In this document: positions 1,676 through 15,593 of the stretch, in pieces
Position numbering within the stretch: position 1 is the stretch's first letter
Layout: each line of letters starts with the position of its first letter
NCBI GenBank assembly: GCA_903907955.1
Contig: CAIVPZ010000006.1
Coordinates: 1 to 64,000 of the forward strand
From: an uncultured Acetobacteraceae bacterium
Lineage (GTDB): Bacteria > Pseudomonadota > Alphaproteobacteria > Acetobacterales > Acetobacteraceae
Direction: 5' to 3'
Length of the DNA stretch: 64,000 nucleotides
Program-made: the position numbers and the translations under genes
The notes under the pieces: generated by a model
What the model was told of the DNA's origin: nothing
The model's input: only the letters and a program-made list of their open reading frames with translations
Databases searched by the model: none

Positions 1676-2266
1676 TCAGTTCTTCCTTGTCGCGGGCTTC
1701 GAGGGCTTCTCCGCCGCCGGGGGCGCTGCCGGCGCACCCGAACATTCGGTGAATTTCATCGCCTGCGGAATCGATTGCGTCTTGGTCGCGGCGAAGGCCG
1801 CCAAGTCGTCGGGCCTGGACAGGGCCATCACCTCGTCGAACCGGCCCAGCGAGCGTTCGCAGAACTGGCTGCCCAGGACCATGGCGCGGCTGGACTGCGC
1901 ATTGGCGAGCTGCGTCACGTAATCGTCGCGCAGCTGCTGGCCGTGCCGCTTGTCGCCGCGGTTGAAGTAGCTCTCGGTCGCCTTCTCCTGCTGCAGCAGC
2001 GCCGGCCGGTAGCGGGTGACGAAGGCGTTGTACTTCTCATCCGCCCGGCACGAGATGGCGGCCACCATCAGGTGGCTCTTCAGCGCCGCCACCGAGAACC
2101 CGGCTATCTCGGCCGGGCGGGCGCACCAGGGCGCGTCCGGCGGCTGCGGCAACGGCGGCGGCACATAGGCGGCCTGCACCGGCGGCGGCGGCGGTTCCTT
2201 GGCGCAACCGGCGAGCAGGGCAACCAGCGACAGGGCGGCGGTTCGGGTCAGGACGGAACGCAGCAT
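1676..2266 (-). CDS. Putative lipoprotein of unknown function
   Basis: A 196-residue product. The start at 2266 gives a clean lipoprotein signal: a short basic N-terminus, a hydrophobic core and the lipobox LLAGC, with the lipidated Cys near residue 21. A proline-rich stretch (PPPPPVQAAYVPPPLP) follows as a spacer, then an alpha-helical region of about 140 residues with three further cysteines. An in-frame ATG at 2275 would add three residues. I do not recognise the family. It is convergent with the OmpA-like gene and its start faces the divergent ATP-grasp gene. It is likely anchored to a membrane facing the periplasm. Confidence 0.7.
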   Translation of the reverse strand: MLRSVLTRTAALSLVALLAGCAKEPPPPPVQAAYVPPPLPQPPDAPWCARPAEIAGFSVAALKSHLMVAAISCRADEKYNAFVTRYRPALLQQEKATESYFNRGDKRHGQQLRDDYVTQLANAQSSRAMVLGSQFCERSLGRFDEVMALSRPDDLAAFAATKTQSIPQAMKFTECSGAPAAPPAAEKPSKPATRKN

Positions 2267-2450
2267 GGGGATCATCCAGGGGCAGAGGAGGCTTTCAGCA
2301 ATAGGCCGGGTCCGCCGCGTCGCGCAACACCACCCTGGCGCAGCCGACAATCGCGCGCTGCTGCGCTGCGGCGAATGGGGATTGCATCCGCCGCAGGTCT
2401 GCTATGCTGGCGACCGCTCAGACCCATTCAACAGGCTTGACGAGTTTCGC

Positions 2451-3929
2451 ATGCAGCAGAACGTTGCCGATCCATTCAGCAGCTACCGGCCCGGTCCCTA
2501 TTTCTGCGAACTGACCACCGATCGCCCGGGTGACGGCGGGGTGCCGGCCGCGGTGCGCGCCCGCATCGGCGCCATCGGCCTGCCCGCCCTGCGCGCCCGC
2601 GCCGCCGCGGCCGAGCACGACCTGATCAATCTCGGCATCACCTTCACCGTCTATACCGAGGCCAATGCGATCGATCGCATCCTGCCGTTCGACTGCATTC
2701 CGCGCATCCTGACCGCGGCCGAGTGGCGCGTGCTGGAAGCCGGGGTGAAGCAGCGGGTGGCGGCGCTGAACGCGTTCCTGCACGACATCTACCACGGCAG
2801 GCGGATCGTGAAGGAAGGCGTGATCCCGGCCGAGCTGGTGTTCGGCAATCCGAACTACCGGCCCGAGATGGAGGACTTCCCGGTCCGCTTCGGCACCTAT
2901 GTTCACATTTGCGGCACCGACATCGTGCGCGACCGCGAAGGCCGGTTCCTGGTGCTGGAGGACAATGCCCGCACCCCCTCCGGCGTGTCCTACGTGGTCG
3001 AGAACCGGCATCTGATGTCGCGCACCTTCCCCGACCTGATGGCCGGCACCCGGCTGCGTCCGGTGGACGATTACGGGCTGCGCCTGCTGGAGGCGATGGT
3101 GGAGATCGCCCCGGCCGGCGTGGACGAGCCGCGGGTCGTGCTGCTCAGCCCGGGCATCTACAACTCGGCCTATTTCGAGCATGTCTTCCTTGCCCGCGAG
3201 ATGGGCGTGCCGCTGGTCGAGGGGGCCGACCTGTTCGTCGAGCATGACAAGGTGTGGATGAGCACCACCGGCGGCCGGCGCCCGGTGCACACCATCTACC
3301 GCCGGCTTGGCGACGACTTTCTCGACCCCACCGTATTCCGCCCGGAAAGCCTGCTCGGCGTGCCGGGGCTGATCGGCGCCTGGCGCCGCGGCAATGTGGC
3401 GCTGGCCAATGCGGTCGGCACCGGGGTGGCCGACGACAAGGCGGTCTATGCCTACATGCCGCGCATCATCCGCTTCTATCTCGACGAAGACCCGATCCTG
3501 GCCAATGTCGAAACCCATATCTGTCGCGAGAAGGAGGGGCTGGCCTACACGCTCGACCGGCTGGCCGAGCTGGTGGTGAAGCCGGTGGGCGAATCCGGCG
3601 GCTATGGCATCACCATCGGCCCGCGCGCCAGCCGGGCGGAACTGGAGCACGCCCGCGCCGCCTTGCTGGCCGATCCCTCCAACTGGATCAGCCAGCCGGT
3701 GGTGTCGCTCTCGGTGGCGCCGACACTGACCGATGACGGCATCCGTCCGCGCCATCTGGACCTGCGCCCCTACGCGGTGACCGGCCGCAACACCTGGGTG
3801 CTGCCGGGCGGGCTGAGCCGGGTGGCGCTGAAGGAGGGCAGCCTGGTGGTGAACTCCTCGCAGGGCGGCGGTTCGAAGGACACCTGGGTGCTCGCCGATG
3901 ACGCCCCCATGGCGGAGGTGCAGCCATGA
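2451..3929 (+). CDS. Circularly permuted ATP-grasp protein (DUF404/DUF407 type)
   Basis: A 492-residue protein that matches the circularly permuted ATP-grasp family in length and sequence. Visible family stretches include YTEANAIDRILPFDCIPRI, VFGNPNYRPEM, VLEDNARTPSGVSYVVENR and the late VVKPVGESGGYGITIGP, which is probably part of the nucleotide-binding site. ATP-grasp enzymes join a carboxylate to an amine or thiol at the cost of ATP; the substrate of this family is not established here. The stop overlaps the next start by four bases (ATGA), so the two genes are translationally coupled. This pair, often with a transglutaminase-like gene, recurs in proteobacteria and is thought to act in peptide modification. 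No transglutaminase is present next to it here. Confidence 0.85.
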   Translation: MQQNVADPFSSYRPGPYFCELTTDRPGDGGVPAAVRARIGAIGLPALRARAAAAEHDLINLGITFTVYTEANAIDRILPFDCIPRILTAAEWRVLEAGVKQRVAALNAFLHDIYHGRRIVKEGVIPAELVFGNPNYRPEMEDFPVRFGTYVHICGTDIVRDREGRFLVLEDNARTPSGVSYVVENRHLMSRTFPDLMAGTRLRPVDDYGLRLLEAMVEIAPAGVDEPRVVLLSPGIYNSAYFEHVFLAREMGVPLVEGADLFVEHDKVWMSTTGGRRPVHTIYRRLGDDFLDPTVFRPESLLGVPGLIGAWRRGNVALANAVGTGVADDKAVYAYMPRIIRFYLDEDPILANVETHICREKEGLAYTLDRLAELVVKPVGESGGYGITIGPRASRAELEHARAALLADPSNWISQPVVSLSVAPTLTDDGIRPRHLDLRPYAVTGRNTWVLPGGLSRVALKEGSLVVNSSQGGGSKDTWVLADDAPMAEVQP

Positions 3930-4933
3930 GCCGCGAACTGTCGCTGCTGGCGCGCTATGCCGAGAACATGTTCTGGATGGCCCGCTACGTGGAACGGGTC
4001 GAGAACATGGCCCGCCTGGTCGATGTCACGCAGACCTTCGAGAGCCCGGGCCGCGAGGCGGTCAGCTGGTTCGCGCTCATCCGCATCAACGCCGACGAGG
4101 AAGGTTTCGCCAAACGCGGCCTGGCGCCGACCGCCGAGGCGGTCAAGCGCTTCTATCTGCTCGACGGCGACAACCCGACCTCGGTCCCGGCCTCGCTGGA
4201 AGCGGCGCGGACCAATGCGCGCACCCTGCGCCCGCTGATCTCTACCGAGATGTGGTCGCAGATCAACGTGTTCCACCGCGCCATGACGGCAATCGACGAG
4301 CGCGAGCTGCAGGGCGACCGGTTGAGCCGGCTGTGCGCCCGCATCAAGGAAGGCGTGCAGACCCATACCGGCATCACCGAGGGCACGCTGTTCCGCGACC
4401 AGGGCTGGCTGTTCTACCAGCTCGGCCGGCTGATCGAGCGGGCCGACCAGACCACGCGGCTGCTCGACATCCGCTACCACCTGCTGGTGCCAACCGGCAG
4501 CGGCGAGGAATTGCGGGTGGCGGAACTCACCCAATGGGGCGGGGTGCTGCGGGCGGCGGCCGGCTATCACGCCTTCCGCCGGGTGGCGCCGCCCGGCTTC
4601 ACGCCGTCCGACGTGGTGCGCTTCCTGCTGGCAGATACGCATTTCCCGCGCAGCGTGGCGCTGTGCGTGGAGCAGATCGAGTGGTTCCTCGGCCGGCTGC
4701 GCAGCCGCTGGGGGTTGCGCGGCACGGTGGCGGCACTGGAACGGGTGGAGGAACTGCGGGCCGGCCTGCTGGGGCGGCCGGTCGAGACCATCATTGCCGA
4801 CGGGCTGCACTTTTTTCTCGATGGCGTGCAGCGGGATCTGATCCTGCTCGCCGGCGAGATCGGCACGGCGTTCTTCCGCGACTGGCGACCGTTGGCGGAT
4901 ACGGCGCAGACGCAGGGGCAGACGCAAGGGTAG
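3926..4933 (+). CDS. Alpha-E domain protein (DUF403)
   Basis: A 335-residue, almost entirely alpha-helical protein. It starts with the hallmark SLLARYAENMFWMARYVERV and has later conserved-looking stretches such as QGWLFYQLGRLIERADQTTR. It belongs to the alpha-E family, which almost always accompanies the circularly permuted ATP-grasp protein. Its start overlaps that gene's stop by four bases. The biochemical role is unknown; partner or scaffold of the ATP-grasp enzyme is the usual inference. A palindromic intergenic repeat begins within two bases of the stop codon. Confidence 0.85.
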   Translation: MSRELSLLARYAENMFWMARYVERVENMARLVDVTQTFESPGREAVSWFALIRINADEEGFAKRGLAPTAEAVKRFYLLDGDNPTSVPASLEAARTNARTLRPLISTEMWSQINVFHRAMTAIDERELQGDRLSRLCARIKEGVQTHTGITEGTLFRDQGWLFYQLGRLIERADQTTRLLDIRYHLLVPTGSGEELRVAELTQWGGVLRAAAGYHAFRRVAPPGFTPSDVVRFLLADTHFPRSVALCVEQIEWFLGRLRSRWGLRGTVAALERVEELRAGLLGRPVETIIADGLHFFLDGVQRDLILLAGEIGTAFFRDWRPLADTAQTQGQTQG

Positions 4934-4994: not shown

Positions 4995-6569
4995 TCAGGC
5001 TGACAGGGCCTCCGGCTCGGTCCTTGCGCGCTTTACCAGCAGCTTGTTCAGCGCATGCACATAGGCGCGGGCGGCGGCGACGATGGTGTCGGTATCCGCT
5101 CCCTGGCCGTCCACCAGCTTGCCGTCCTCCTCCAGCCGCACCGTTACCCTTGCCTGCGCGTCGGTGCCTTCGGTGACAGCGCCCACCGAGAACAGCCGCA
5201 GCGTCGCCTCGTGCGGGAACAGCTGGCGGATGGCGATGAAGGTGGCGTCCACCGGACCGTCGCCGGTGGCCGTGGTGGCGTGCGCTTCGCCGTCGATCTC
5301 CAGTTCCAGCGACGCGGTGGGCTTCACCCGGCTGCCGGCATGCACGTCCAGCGCAACAAAGCGGATGCGGGTGTGGTCGCGCATCACCTCGTCATCGACG
5401 AGAGCGGAGATGTCCTCGTCGTAGACCACCTTCTTGCGGTCGGCCAGATCCTTGAACCGGCGGAACGCGTCGTTGAGCTGGTTGTCGCCGATCTCGCCGT
5501 AGCCCAGCGCCCGCAGCTTGTCGCGGAAGGCGGCACGGCCGGAATGCTTGCCCATCACCAGGTTGGACTTGGTCCAGCCGACGCTTTCCGGCGTCATGAT
5601 CTCGTAGGTGGCGGCGTTCTTCAGCACGCCGTCCTGATGGATGCCGCTTTCATGCGCAAACGCGTTGCGGCCGACGATCGCCTTGTTGGGCTGCACGTCG
5701 AAGCCGGTGATGGTGGACAGCAGGCGCGAGGTTTTCAGGATTTTTTCCGTCACGATGTTCGGCTTGCACGCCACCGCATCGGGGCGGGTGCGCAGCGCCA
5801 TGACGATCTCCTCCAGCGCCGCGTTGCCGGCGCGTTCGCCGATGCCGTTGATGGTGCACTCGATCTGCCGCACCCCGGCGCGCACCGCGGCGATGGTGTT
5901 GGCCACCGCCAGGCCCAGATCGTTGTGGTTGTGCGCCGAAAAAATCACCCGCTCGGCGCCCGGCACCCGCGCGCGCAGCATGGTGAAGATGCGCGCCAGA
6001 TCCTCCGGCAGGGCGTAGCCGACCGTGTCCGGAATGTTGATGGTGGTCGCCCCGGCGGCGATGGCGGCCTCGGTGCAGCGGCACAGGAAGTCGGGGTCGG
6101 TGCGGCTGCCGTCCTCGGCCGACCATTCCACGTCGTCGGTGTACTGCCGCGCCAGGGTGACGCTGTCGGTCACCGCCGCCAGCACCGCCTCCGGCTCCAT
6201 GCGCAGCTTGTATTTCATGTGCAGCGCGCTGGTGCTGATGAAGGTGTGGATGCGCTTGCGCTCGGCCGGAGCCACCGCCTCGCCGGCGCGGATCACGTCG
6301 GCGCGGCCGGAGCGGGCCAGGCCGCAGATCACCGGGCCTTTCACCGTCTGGGCGATGGTCTGCACGCTCTCGAAATCGCCCGGCGAGGCGATCGGGAAGC
6401 CGGCTTCGATCACGTCCACGCCCAGCTCGGCCAGCGCCTCGGCCATGCGCAGCTTCTCCGCCAGGTTCATGGAGAAGCCGGGCGACTGCTCGCCGTCGCG
6501 CAGGGTGGTGTCGAAGATGATGACGCGGGAGTCATCCAGCTTGCCGAAGCTGGGATGGTTGATGCTCAT
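4995..6569 (-). CDS. leuA: 2-isopropylmalate synthase
   Basis: A 524-residue protein of full length for the long LeuA type. The N-terminal catalytic TIM barrel shows DTTLRDGEQSPGFSM with the metal-binding aspartate, and SAHNHNDLGLAVANT with the metal-binding histidines. The C-terminal third is the LeuA allosteric dimer domain, where leucine feedback acts. It condenses acetyl-CoA with 2-oxoisovalerate, the first committed step to leucine. The ATG at 6569 has an AGGAG about ten bases upstream. The gene is preceded by a leucine-rich leader peptide (6648-6755) and alternative stem-loops, so transcription is probably controlled by leucine through attenuation. It converges with the alpha-E gene. 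Confidence 0.95.
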   Translation of the reverse strand: MSINHPSFGKLDDSRVIIFDTTLRDGEQSPGFSMNLAEKLRMAEALAELGVDVIEAGFPIASPGDFESVQTIAQTVKGPVICGLARSGRADVIRAGEAVAPAERKRIHTFISTSALHMKYKLRMEPEAVLAAVTDSVTLARQYTDDVEWSAEDGSRTDPDFLCRCTEAAIAAGATTINIPDTVGYALPEDLARIFTMLRARVPGAERVIFSAHNHNDLGLAVANTIAAVRAGVRQIECTINGIGERAGNAALEEIVMALRTRPDAVACKPNIVTEKILKTSRLLSTITGFDVQPNKAIVGRNAFAHESGIHQDGVLKNAATYEIMTPESVGWTKSNLVMGKHSGRAAFRDKLRALGYGEIGDNQLNDAFRRFKDLADRKKVVYDEDISALVDDEVMRDHTRIRFVALDVHAGSRVKPTASLELEIDGEAHATTATGDGPVDATFIAIRQLFPHEATLRLFSVGAVTEGTDAQARVTVRLEEDGKLVDGQGADTDTIVAAARAYVHALNKLLVKRARTEPEALSA

Positions 6570-6605
6570 GAAACGCCGCTCCTGGAGAGAATGTACGACA
6601 TTAGC

Positions 6606-6660
6606 CTCAGGGGTCCCCCTGAGCTGTGGCCGGCACGCAGCCGGACGTCACGCCCAGGGG
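6606..6660 (-). promoter_or_regulatory. Attenuator-like alternative hairpins in the leuA leader
   Basis: Read on the minus strand, CTCAGGGG (6623-6616) pairs perfectly with CCCCTGAG (6613-6606), a terminator-like stem with a very short loop. The same 5' arm can instead pair with CCCCTGGGC (6660-6652), inside the last codons and just before the stop of the leader peptide. That gives nine pairs including one wobble. This is the geometry of classical attenuation: a ribosome at the stop codon covers 6660-6652 and lets the terminator form, while a ribosome stalled at the upstream leucine codons leaves the antiterminator free. No T-run follows the hairpin, so intrinsic termination is not certain. 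Confidence 0.55.
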
Positions 6661-6755
6661 CGGCTAAGTCGAAGGAGCAGGCCGAGCGGCAGGCGCAACA
6701 GGCCGCGCGCGGGGGCGCGTGAAGGGCGGCCGGTGATGTCTGCGCCATGAACCAT
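6648..6755 (-). CDS. Leucine-rich leader peptide upstream of leuA
   Basis: A 35-codon reading frame from an ATG at 6755 to a TGA ending at 6648. Its second half contains LLRLPLGLLLRL: eight leucine codons within twelve, using CTG, CTC, CTT and TTG. It lies about 80 bases upstream of leuA on the same strand, and the stop codon sits just before the alternative stem-loops. The peptide itself is presumably without function; translation speed through the leucine codons would be the sensor. The ribosome binding site is weak. A TTGCAT/TAGGCT pair with a 17-base spacer lies just upstream and could give a nearly leaderless transcript, but the match is poor. Confidence 0.65.
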   Translation of the reverse strand: MVHGADITGRPSRAPARGLLRLPLGLLLRLSRPWA

Positions 6756-7099
6756 GCAACCAGCCTAGCGATGCGGGCGGGTGGATGCAAGCGCGGCAGG
6801 GCCAGGAACCGGGCAGGCCGACACGACGATCGGGCCGGCTTCAGTCCCAACCTCGCGTTTGGACGACGCGCCGGCCTGCCCGGAAGGCGCCGGGGCATTC
6901 GCGCGGGCGGGCATCTTTGCCACGTGATTGCGGCAGCATTTGACAACGCCCTCGCTTTCTGGTGACGCTGCGCGCGCAAGCGCAATCCTGGCCAGCCTTG
7001 GACCGCCTCCGATCCATCGGGTGCCTTCAAGCGGCCCAGGCTGCGGTTGCATGACCCGCACGCTATTGTGCGGTGTTTGCAGCGGAGAGCGACGTAGCG
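6756..7099. other. Divergent intergenic region between leuA leader and cold-shock gene
   Basis: About 340 bases with no convincing gene. It must carry the leuA promoter (leftward) and the cold-shock promoter (rightward). A TTGACA occurs at 6940-6945 on the plus strand, but no good -10 follows at the right distance. The sequence just before 7100 may form the long 5' leader usual for cold-shock mRNAs. Confidence 0.5.
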
Positions 7100-7303
7100 A
7101 TGGCTATCGGAACGGTTAAGTGGTTCAACACCACCAAGGGCTTCGGCTTCATCATGCCGGATGACGGCGGCAAGGACGTGTTCGTTCACATCACGGCAGT
7201 GCAGGCAGCTGGGCTTCGTGGTTTGGACGAAGGGCAGAAGGTGACCTACGAGGTGATGATGGAGCGCGGCAAGGCCGCAGCTACCAATCTCAAGCTCGCC
7301 TAA
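7100..7303 (+). CDS. Cold-shock domain protein (CspA family)
   Basis: A 67-residue single cold-shock domain. It has GTVKWFN at the start, the RNP1 motif KGFGFI and the RNP2 motif VFVHI, which together form the single-stranded nucleic acid binding face. The start at 7100 is chosen because it gives the standard MAIGTVKWF beginning. It acts in the cytoplasm as an RNA chaperone or cold and stationary-phase regulator. It is a single-gene unit, divergent from leuA and facing moaB. Confidence 0.95.
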
Positions 7304-15518: not shown

Positions 15519-15593
15519 TGGGGCGTCGCCAAGCGGTAAGGCAGCGGATTTTGATTCCGCCATTCGGAGGTTCGATTCCTCCCGCCCCAGCCA
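15519..15593 (+). tRNA. tRNA-Gln (anticodon TTG)
   Basis: The acceptor stem pairs TGGGGCG (15519-15525) with CGCCCCA (15583-15589), followed by G and an encoded CCA (15591-15593). The anticodon loop reads TTTTGAT with anticodon TTG. The T arm has the standard GGTTCGATTCC. The start TGGGGCG and first base pair U-A are typical of bacterial glutamine tRNAs. Confidence 0.97.

Follow-up and report, generated by a model that had tools for sequence, protein, structure and literature searches.

The region ahead of leuA in the window, the whole stretch of 64,000 nucleotides from an uncultured Acetobacteraceae bacterium that was analysed, raises the question of how a leucine-rich reading frame with competing stems may govern the gene that follows, and whether it would do so by terminating transcription or in another way. 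The gene (6569-4995, on the minus strand, as are all the features of the element given below) encodes 2-isopropylmalate synthase (NCBIfam NF002087, E 7e-256), which bears out the placement of leuA downstream of the leader in a sequence-only reading made earlier of this locus, and it is presumed to be the regulated gene; the closest LeuA matches of its product are those of Acetobacteraceae and Rhodospirillales MAGs. A divergent cold-shock-domain gene (7100-7303) shares the intergenic region 6756-7099 with the leuA leader. Two genes, one for a circularly permuted ATP-grasp protein and the other for an Alpha-E domain protein, occupy the plus strand at 2199-4933, convergent with leuA, which is apparently the sole minus-strand gene of this neighbourhood. 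The only tRNA of the window is tRNA-Gln (anticodon TTG, 15519-15593).

The 35-codon frame with eight leucine codons in twelve, as it had been described from the sequence, was confirmed in both respects: the leader peptide ORF (6755-6648) translates as MVHGADITGRPSRAPARGLLRLPLGLLLRLSRPWA, ending in GLLRLPLGLLLRLSRPWA before the stop, and its run of leucine codons LLRLPLGLLLRL (6666..6701) is the sole segment with at least eight leucines among the 110,391 stop-free 12-codon segments of the whole window in six frames. Among the 102 non-redundant relatives, leucine takes a 32% share of codons -12 to -2 in the leader frame, its share being 8% and 3% in the two alternative frames, and stops interrupt the leader frame in 3 relatives as compared with 35 and 24 in the other two. 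By such leucine enrichment and frame conservation the leader ORF is, as judged from the aligned sequences, a translated one. The last leucine codon (6666..6668 in the window) is CUU in 98 of the 102 relatives and CUA in 4, with A as the next base in all of them, and CUU makes up 4% of the leucine codons in the leuA genes of the same relatives; the pairing described below accounts only in part for the near-invariant A after this rare codon. Codon and spacing are constant among the members while the Arg, the Pro and the stop position vary, and an arrest peptide ending in RLxxP and a stop was ruled out, since Leu can replace the Arg, some members have no Pro and the stop shifts. A +1 slip from CUU to UUA was prompted solely by the conservation of CUUA, and the CUAA variants speak against it.

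Upstream of the leader, a promoter-like pair (TTGCAT at 6790-6785, a gap of 17 nt and TAGGCT at 6767-6762; together 6762..6790), with a modest score of 6.5, ends 6 nt before the ATG. The congeners L083 and L084 retain the start codon together with a -35/-10-like pair placed 6 to 7 nt upstream of it, a layout like that of the window is also present in other Acetobacteraceae, and TATAGT stands 7 nt before the leader ATG in Rhodobacterales; the sequence ahead of the leader ATG gave no strict sigma-70 match. With promoter-like sequence so close to the ATG, the leader mRNA would be leaderless: it probably starts at or beside this codon, so that translation would begin at its extreme 5' end.

The 9-bp pairing of 6652-6660 with 6616-6624, earlier assigned the role of an antiterminator, is real and contains one G-U pair, but that role is not retained, as the pairing is the universal stem of the element (stem A), a status that rests on covariation. 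It had been said to overlap the leader stop region and, more exactly, it covers the codons CCC UGG GCG, which immediately precede the stop (6650-6648). The 5' arm CCCCUGGGC (arm A, 6652..6660) begins in nearly every relative at a distance of 8 nt from the C of CUU, the 3' arm GCUCAGGGG (A', 6616..6624) closes the stem, and a variable hairpin B, CCGGC-UGCGU-GCCGG (6630..6644), is predicted to fold within it. In the alignment A2, the ten pairs of stem A are formed in 96.5% of the cells, slid controls giving at most 59.2%, and six of the ten show double changes. With the alignment widened by Rhizobiaceae, Sphingomonas and Actinobacteria, 95.3% of the stem A cells pair and 82 cells have double changes versus 18.7 in shuffles, figures biased towards pairing by the choice of the 3' arm as the best complement in several rows; in the added groups the stem sequence differs for the most part or entirely (CGGUCGCCAG/CUGGCGACCG, CCGCGACGAG/CUCGUCGCGG). 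A fully re-paired stem A, CGCUUAAGCG/CGCUUGAGC, is found in a low-GC alphaproteobacterial relative (L138:702-760).

An alignment of the regions upstream of leuA had been suggested as a check on this locus, and in it both the leucine-rich frame and the covarying structure prove to be conserved in relatives. The comparison of 98 distinct Acetobacteraceae-type loci gave in nearly all of them CUK-CGA-CUU-A-nCnn-CCCCUG, a variable hairpin and then CGCUCAGGGG, with a leucine-rich frame typically ending in LLLRL[STI]xP; some relatives carry CUN where others have CGA. The pattern CGACTTANCNNCCCCTG occurs in 27 of the 289 class genomes and its reversed form, used as control, in 4; each of the 20 inspected matches is directly upstream of leuA. 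The covariance model R1, built from A2, matches 87 of the 289 class genomes, spread by count over about 56 families, nearly always in one copy per genome, and in a phylum sample 52 of 53 R1 matches fall within Alphaproteobacteria, the remaining one being weak (E 0.007). The named genera among the relatives are Paracoccus, Phaeobacter, Methylobacterium, Sphingomonas, Shinella, Rhizobium, Ochrobactrum and Sinorhizobium; the laboratory species Paracoccus denitrificans and Phaeobacter inhibens (loci L256, L254) are among the carriers. The second LeuA type (PRK03739/TIGR00970) is also preceded by the element (L154, L156, L170, L257), which is therefore tied to the pathway step and not to one protein lineage. 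Ahead of the plasmid- or chromid-borne long-type leuA genes of Rhizobiaceae/Brucellaceae (L261, L262, L266, L267, L273) the element has a stem of entirely different sequence, and the model trained on CCCCUGA missed these loci or scored them weakly. Upstream of the long-type LeuA in Cupriavidus, Burkholderia or Klebsiella the element was not found, and the Rfam scan of the window and eight relatives returned no relevant match and no leader family.

The partner of the leucine codons is suggested by the predicted fold of the window, in which CUGCUCCU (6680-6673) forms 8 bp with AGGAGCGG (6576..6583), the site that includes the leuA Shine-Dalgarno (SD) sequence AGGAG (6583-6579). Further in, CGAC/GUCG and UUAGCC/GGCUAA make up the second part of the long-range helix, in which GGCUAA-U-GUCG (6596..6606) pairs with CGACUUAGCC (6671-6662), and then come stem A and hairpin B; all these predicted helices are nested and therefore able to coexist in one masking structure. 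The run LLRLPLGLLLRL would accordingly be both a putative leucine sensor and the 5' strand of a helix covering the leuA ribosome-binding site (RBS). The fold energy of the window leader is 1.8 sd below shuffles, no more.

For each relative, with leuA start codons assigned by script, the duplex energy of its own leucine-codon region with its own leuA-start region was compared with that of swapped combinations. The native pairs surpass the swapped ones (-16.6 versus -14.1 kcal/mol; z -8.1, 0/5000 permutations), also with GC-matched swaps (z -6.7, 0/5000) and at 60% redundancy (n=38; z -3.1, 3/5000). The controls of this test gave z from +0.8 to -3.0, and because two weak ones reach about -3, relatedness and composition explain part of the pairing signal, though not all of it; in 29 of the 102 relatives the native pairing is no better than expected. 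Among the other pairings tried, that of arm A with sequence downstream of A' (z -0.2) and that of the leucine codons with A' (z +0.8) were rejected. Complementarity of the leucine codons and the RBS is striking in such single cases as TTCTCTCGCT/AGCGAGAGAA (L144) and AGATTCTTCG/CGAAGAATCT (L242). The spacers of CGA-type relatives are enriched in GTCG (RNA GUCG; 25 versus 14.5 expected) and those of CUN-type relatives in TAAGG (RNA UAAGG; 8 versus 0.6), which are the complements of the leader motifs of the CGA-type and CUN-type members, respectively. The predicted openness of the SD, 0.28 in the free leader, reached 0.43 when the mask of a ribosome stalled at CUU was applied and 0.33 when an equally large control mask was used (P 0.002); for the leader of the window the increase under the mask at CUU was only from 0.05 to 0.19. 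In 12 of 101 relatives this mask lowered the openness, and its effect on SD opening, as modelled, is modest.

The element is thus rather probably, in our judgement, a translational attenuator through which leuA responds to leucine. Comparison of the sequences shows the leader frame, its leucine enrichment, stem A, the species-matched pairing of leucine codons with the RBS and the lack of a U-tract, while stalling, the direction of regulation and leucine as the signal are drawn from established attenuation logic. With no ribosome on the 3' part of the leader, stem A (6660-6652/6624-6616) would fold and bring the leucine codons onto the leuA RBS, through 6680-6673/6583-6576 and 6671-6662/6606-6596, so that the masked gene would be poorly translated. 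When leucyl-tRNA is scarce, a ribosome would stall on the leucine codons, notably on CUU (6668-6666), covering the masking strand and, by count, the first bases of stem A, and the SD so freed would allow LeuA to be made. With ample leucine, the ribosome would get to the stop and depart, the masking structure would re-form, and the untranslated leuA mRNA may also be lost to Rho. Of the earlier idea of a leucine attenuator, the leucine-rich leader ahead of leuA is retained and the roles of the stems are changed; of its fallback, a Rho- or translation-based control, the translational form fits better, as the leucine codons pair with the leuA SD in a species-matched manner.

The roles first given to the stems were those of classical transcription attenuation, in which A:A' would be the antiterminator and A':C (6606-6623) the terminator, a stall on the leucine codons favouring A:A'. 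Arm C, CCCCUGAG (6606..6613), is a copy of arm A and can pair with 6616-6623 in its place; the perfect stem reported at 6606-6613/6616-6623 is indeed exact (CTCAGGGG-GA-CCCCTGAG) and occurs once in the genome. Both structures are present in the window and are mutually exclusive, and arm C is over-represented in the CGA-type spacers (CCTGA, 17 versus 3.5 expected), but the A':C stem is present in 7 of the 102 non-redundant relatives, with no general pairing signal across them (z -0.8), and a ribosome halted at the conserved CUU would lie over the first part of arm A. The T-run noticed as missing is indeed so, with 0 terminator-like sites in 6500-7110 and no U-tract after C or A', and an intrinsic terminator at stem A or C was rejected for want of a T-run; because neither stem has a U-tract, a transcription terminator is unsupported. 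Together with the universality of the 9-bp pairing, these results do not bear out the choice between terminator and antiterminator, and classical attenuation is considered improbable. The copy CCCCUGAG just past stem A is carried by a minority of Acetobacteraceae (window 6596-6613, L009, L057, L070, L088), and A':C is, on the sequences compared, a local addition in some members of the family; as a guess, arm C might engage the liberated 3' arm of stem A while a ribosome occupies arm A.

Stem A might itself be a terminator or mark a Rho-dependent one, with a ribosome at CUU blocking the 5' arm and transcription continuing, and the distance of 8 nt from CUU to stem A, fixed in nearly all relatives, would suit such a device, as would the AUUUUUA that directly follows the stem in L138, the clearest member whose stem A also resembles an intrinsic terminator. 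However, the T fraction after A' is near the spacer mean, the longest T-run is at most 2 in 85 of the 102 relatives, and the species-matched pairing of leucine codons and SD is left unexplained, which makes this an unlikely account. A regulatory-protein binding site, in which the peptide would matter little, was proposed by the authors of the actinobacterial LEU element; the near-invariant CUUA agrees with it, as do leucine-codon mutations in the Streptomyces leuA leader that were reported not to behave as classical attenuation predicts (PMC1262725). Against it stand the strong in-frame leucine enrichment with frame conservation and a stem sequence that can change completely, and we hold it to be very improbable.

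The translational attenuator thus preferred looks, from the comparative evidence, like an old and widespread leucine sensor that would act on translation and not through a classical transcription terminator. The usual teaching presents amino-acid attenuation as a way to terminate transcription; for leucine synthesis, an entire bacterial class apparently relies on a translational form of it. The conserved element is absent from Rfam and undescribed within the literature searched; its covariance model is usable for annotation, and it would offer an easily tested leucine sensor for industrial and environmental Alphaproteobacteria.

In the full-text literature searched, no earlier report from Alphaproteobacteria was found, only that of the LEU element, predicted by Seliverstov et al. 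in 2005 upstream of leuA in Actinobacteria (PMC1262725). It comprises a peptide with a leucine run, a base stem of leucine codons and the leuA SD and an inner pseudoknot or hairpin, without a terminator, and its authors regarded classical attenuation as unlikely (PMC1262725). The position upstream of leuA, the short leucine-run peptide, the base stem of leucine codons and leuA SD enclosing an inner hairpin, and the lack of a terminator are all present in the alphaproteobacterial element, and its probable leaderless start is matched by LeuL1 of Streptomyces lividans (MRFGLLLLSCRGEGL), which is leaderless and without a terminator (PMC8079986). In the leuA leaders of Nonomuraea and Microbacterium the sequence is CUUA, the distance from the C of CUU to the stem is exactly 8 nt, and CUUAGCUGCC is shared with some Alphaproteobacteria. 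The leaders of Nocardia and Tsukamurella read CUCG, and here too the stem follows the beginning of the last leucine codon by 8 nt. The R1 scores on actinobacterial leaders are weak (Microbacterium E 0.03, Nonomuraea E 0.08), and taken with the common CUUA and 8-nt spacing they make shared descent with the LEU element no more than plausible. The differences are that the LEU element was described for Actinobacteria only, with a pseudoknot and a protein partner proposed, whereas many alphaproteobacterial members have CUK-CGA-CUU-A, many have a CCCCUGA stem that contains the leader stop, and the genes downstream encode two LeuA types; neither of the two is represented in the Rfam scans. The anatomy would thus be that of the LEU element, whose range would on sequence grounds include a second phylum and for which a translational reading gains support; this would clarify the unexplained actinobacterial element. 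It is a tentative further step that the two form one ancient RNA family with a ribosome ruler, in which a stall at the near-invariant CUU exactly 8 nt before the stem opens the leuA RBS, and which stays upstream of leuA even with a different LeuA type.

The enterobacterial leu attenuator (Rfam Leu_leader) likewise has a leucine-rich leader peptide before leuA, but the element described here is without its U-tract terminator and without an Rfam match, and its predicted output is translation. The leaders of the ermC type are translational attenuators, in which a uORF pairs with the downstream SD and a stalled ribosome unmasks it. The mycobacterial Cys uORFs are also translational attenuators (mentioned in PMC13236596). 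As in both of these, the uORF sequence pairs with a downstream SD that a stalled ribosome would unmask; unlike them, the signal would be leucyl-tRNA, the target leuA, and the conservation would extend over a bacterial class.
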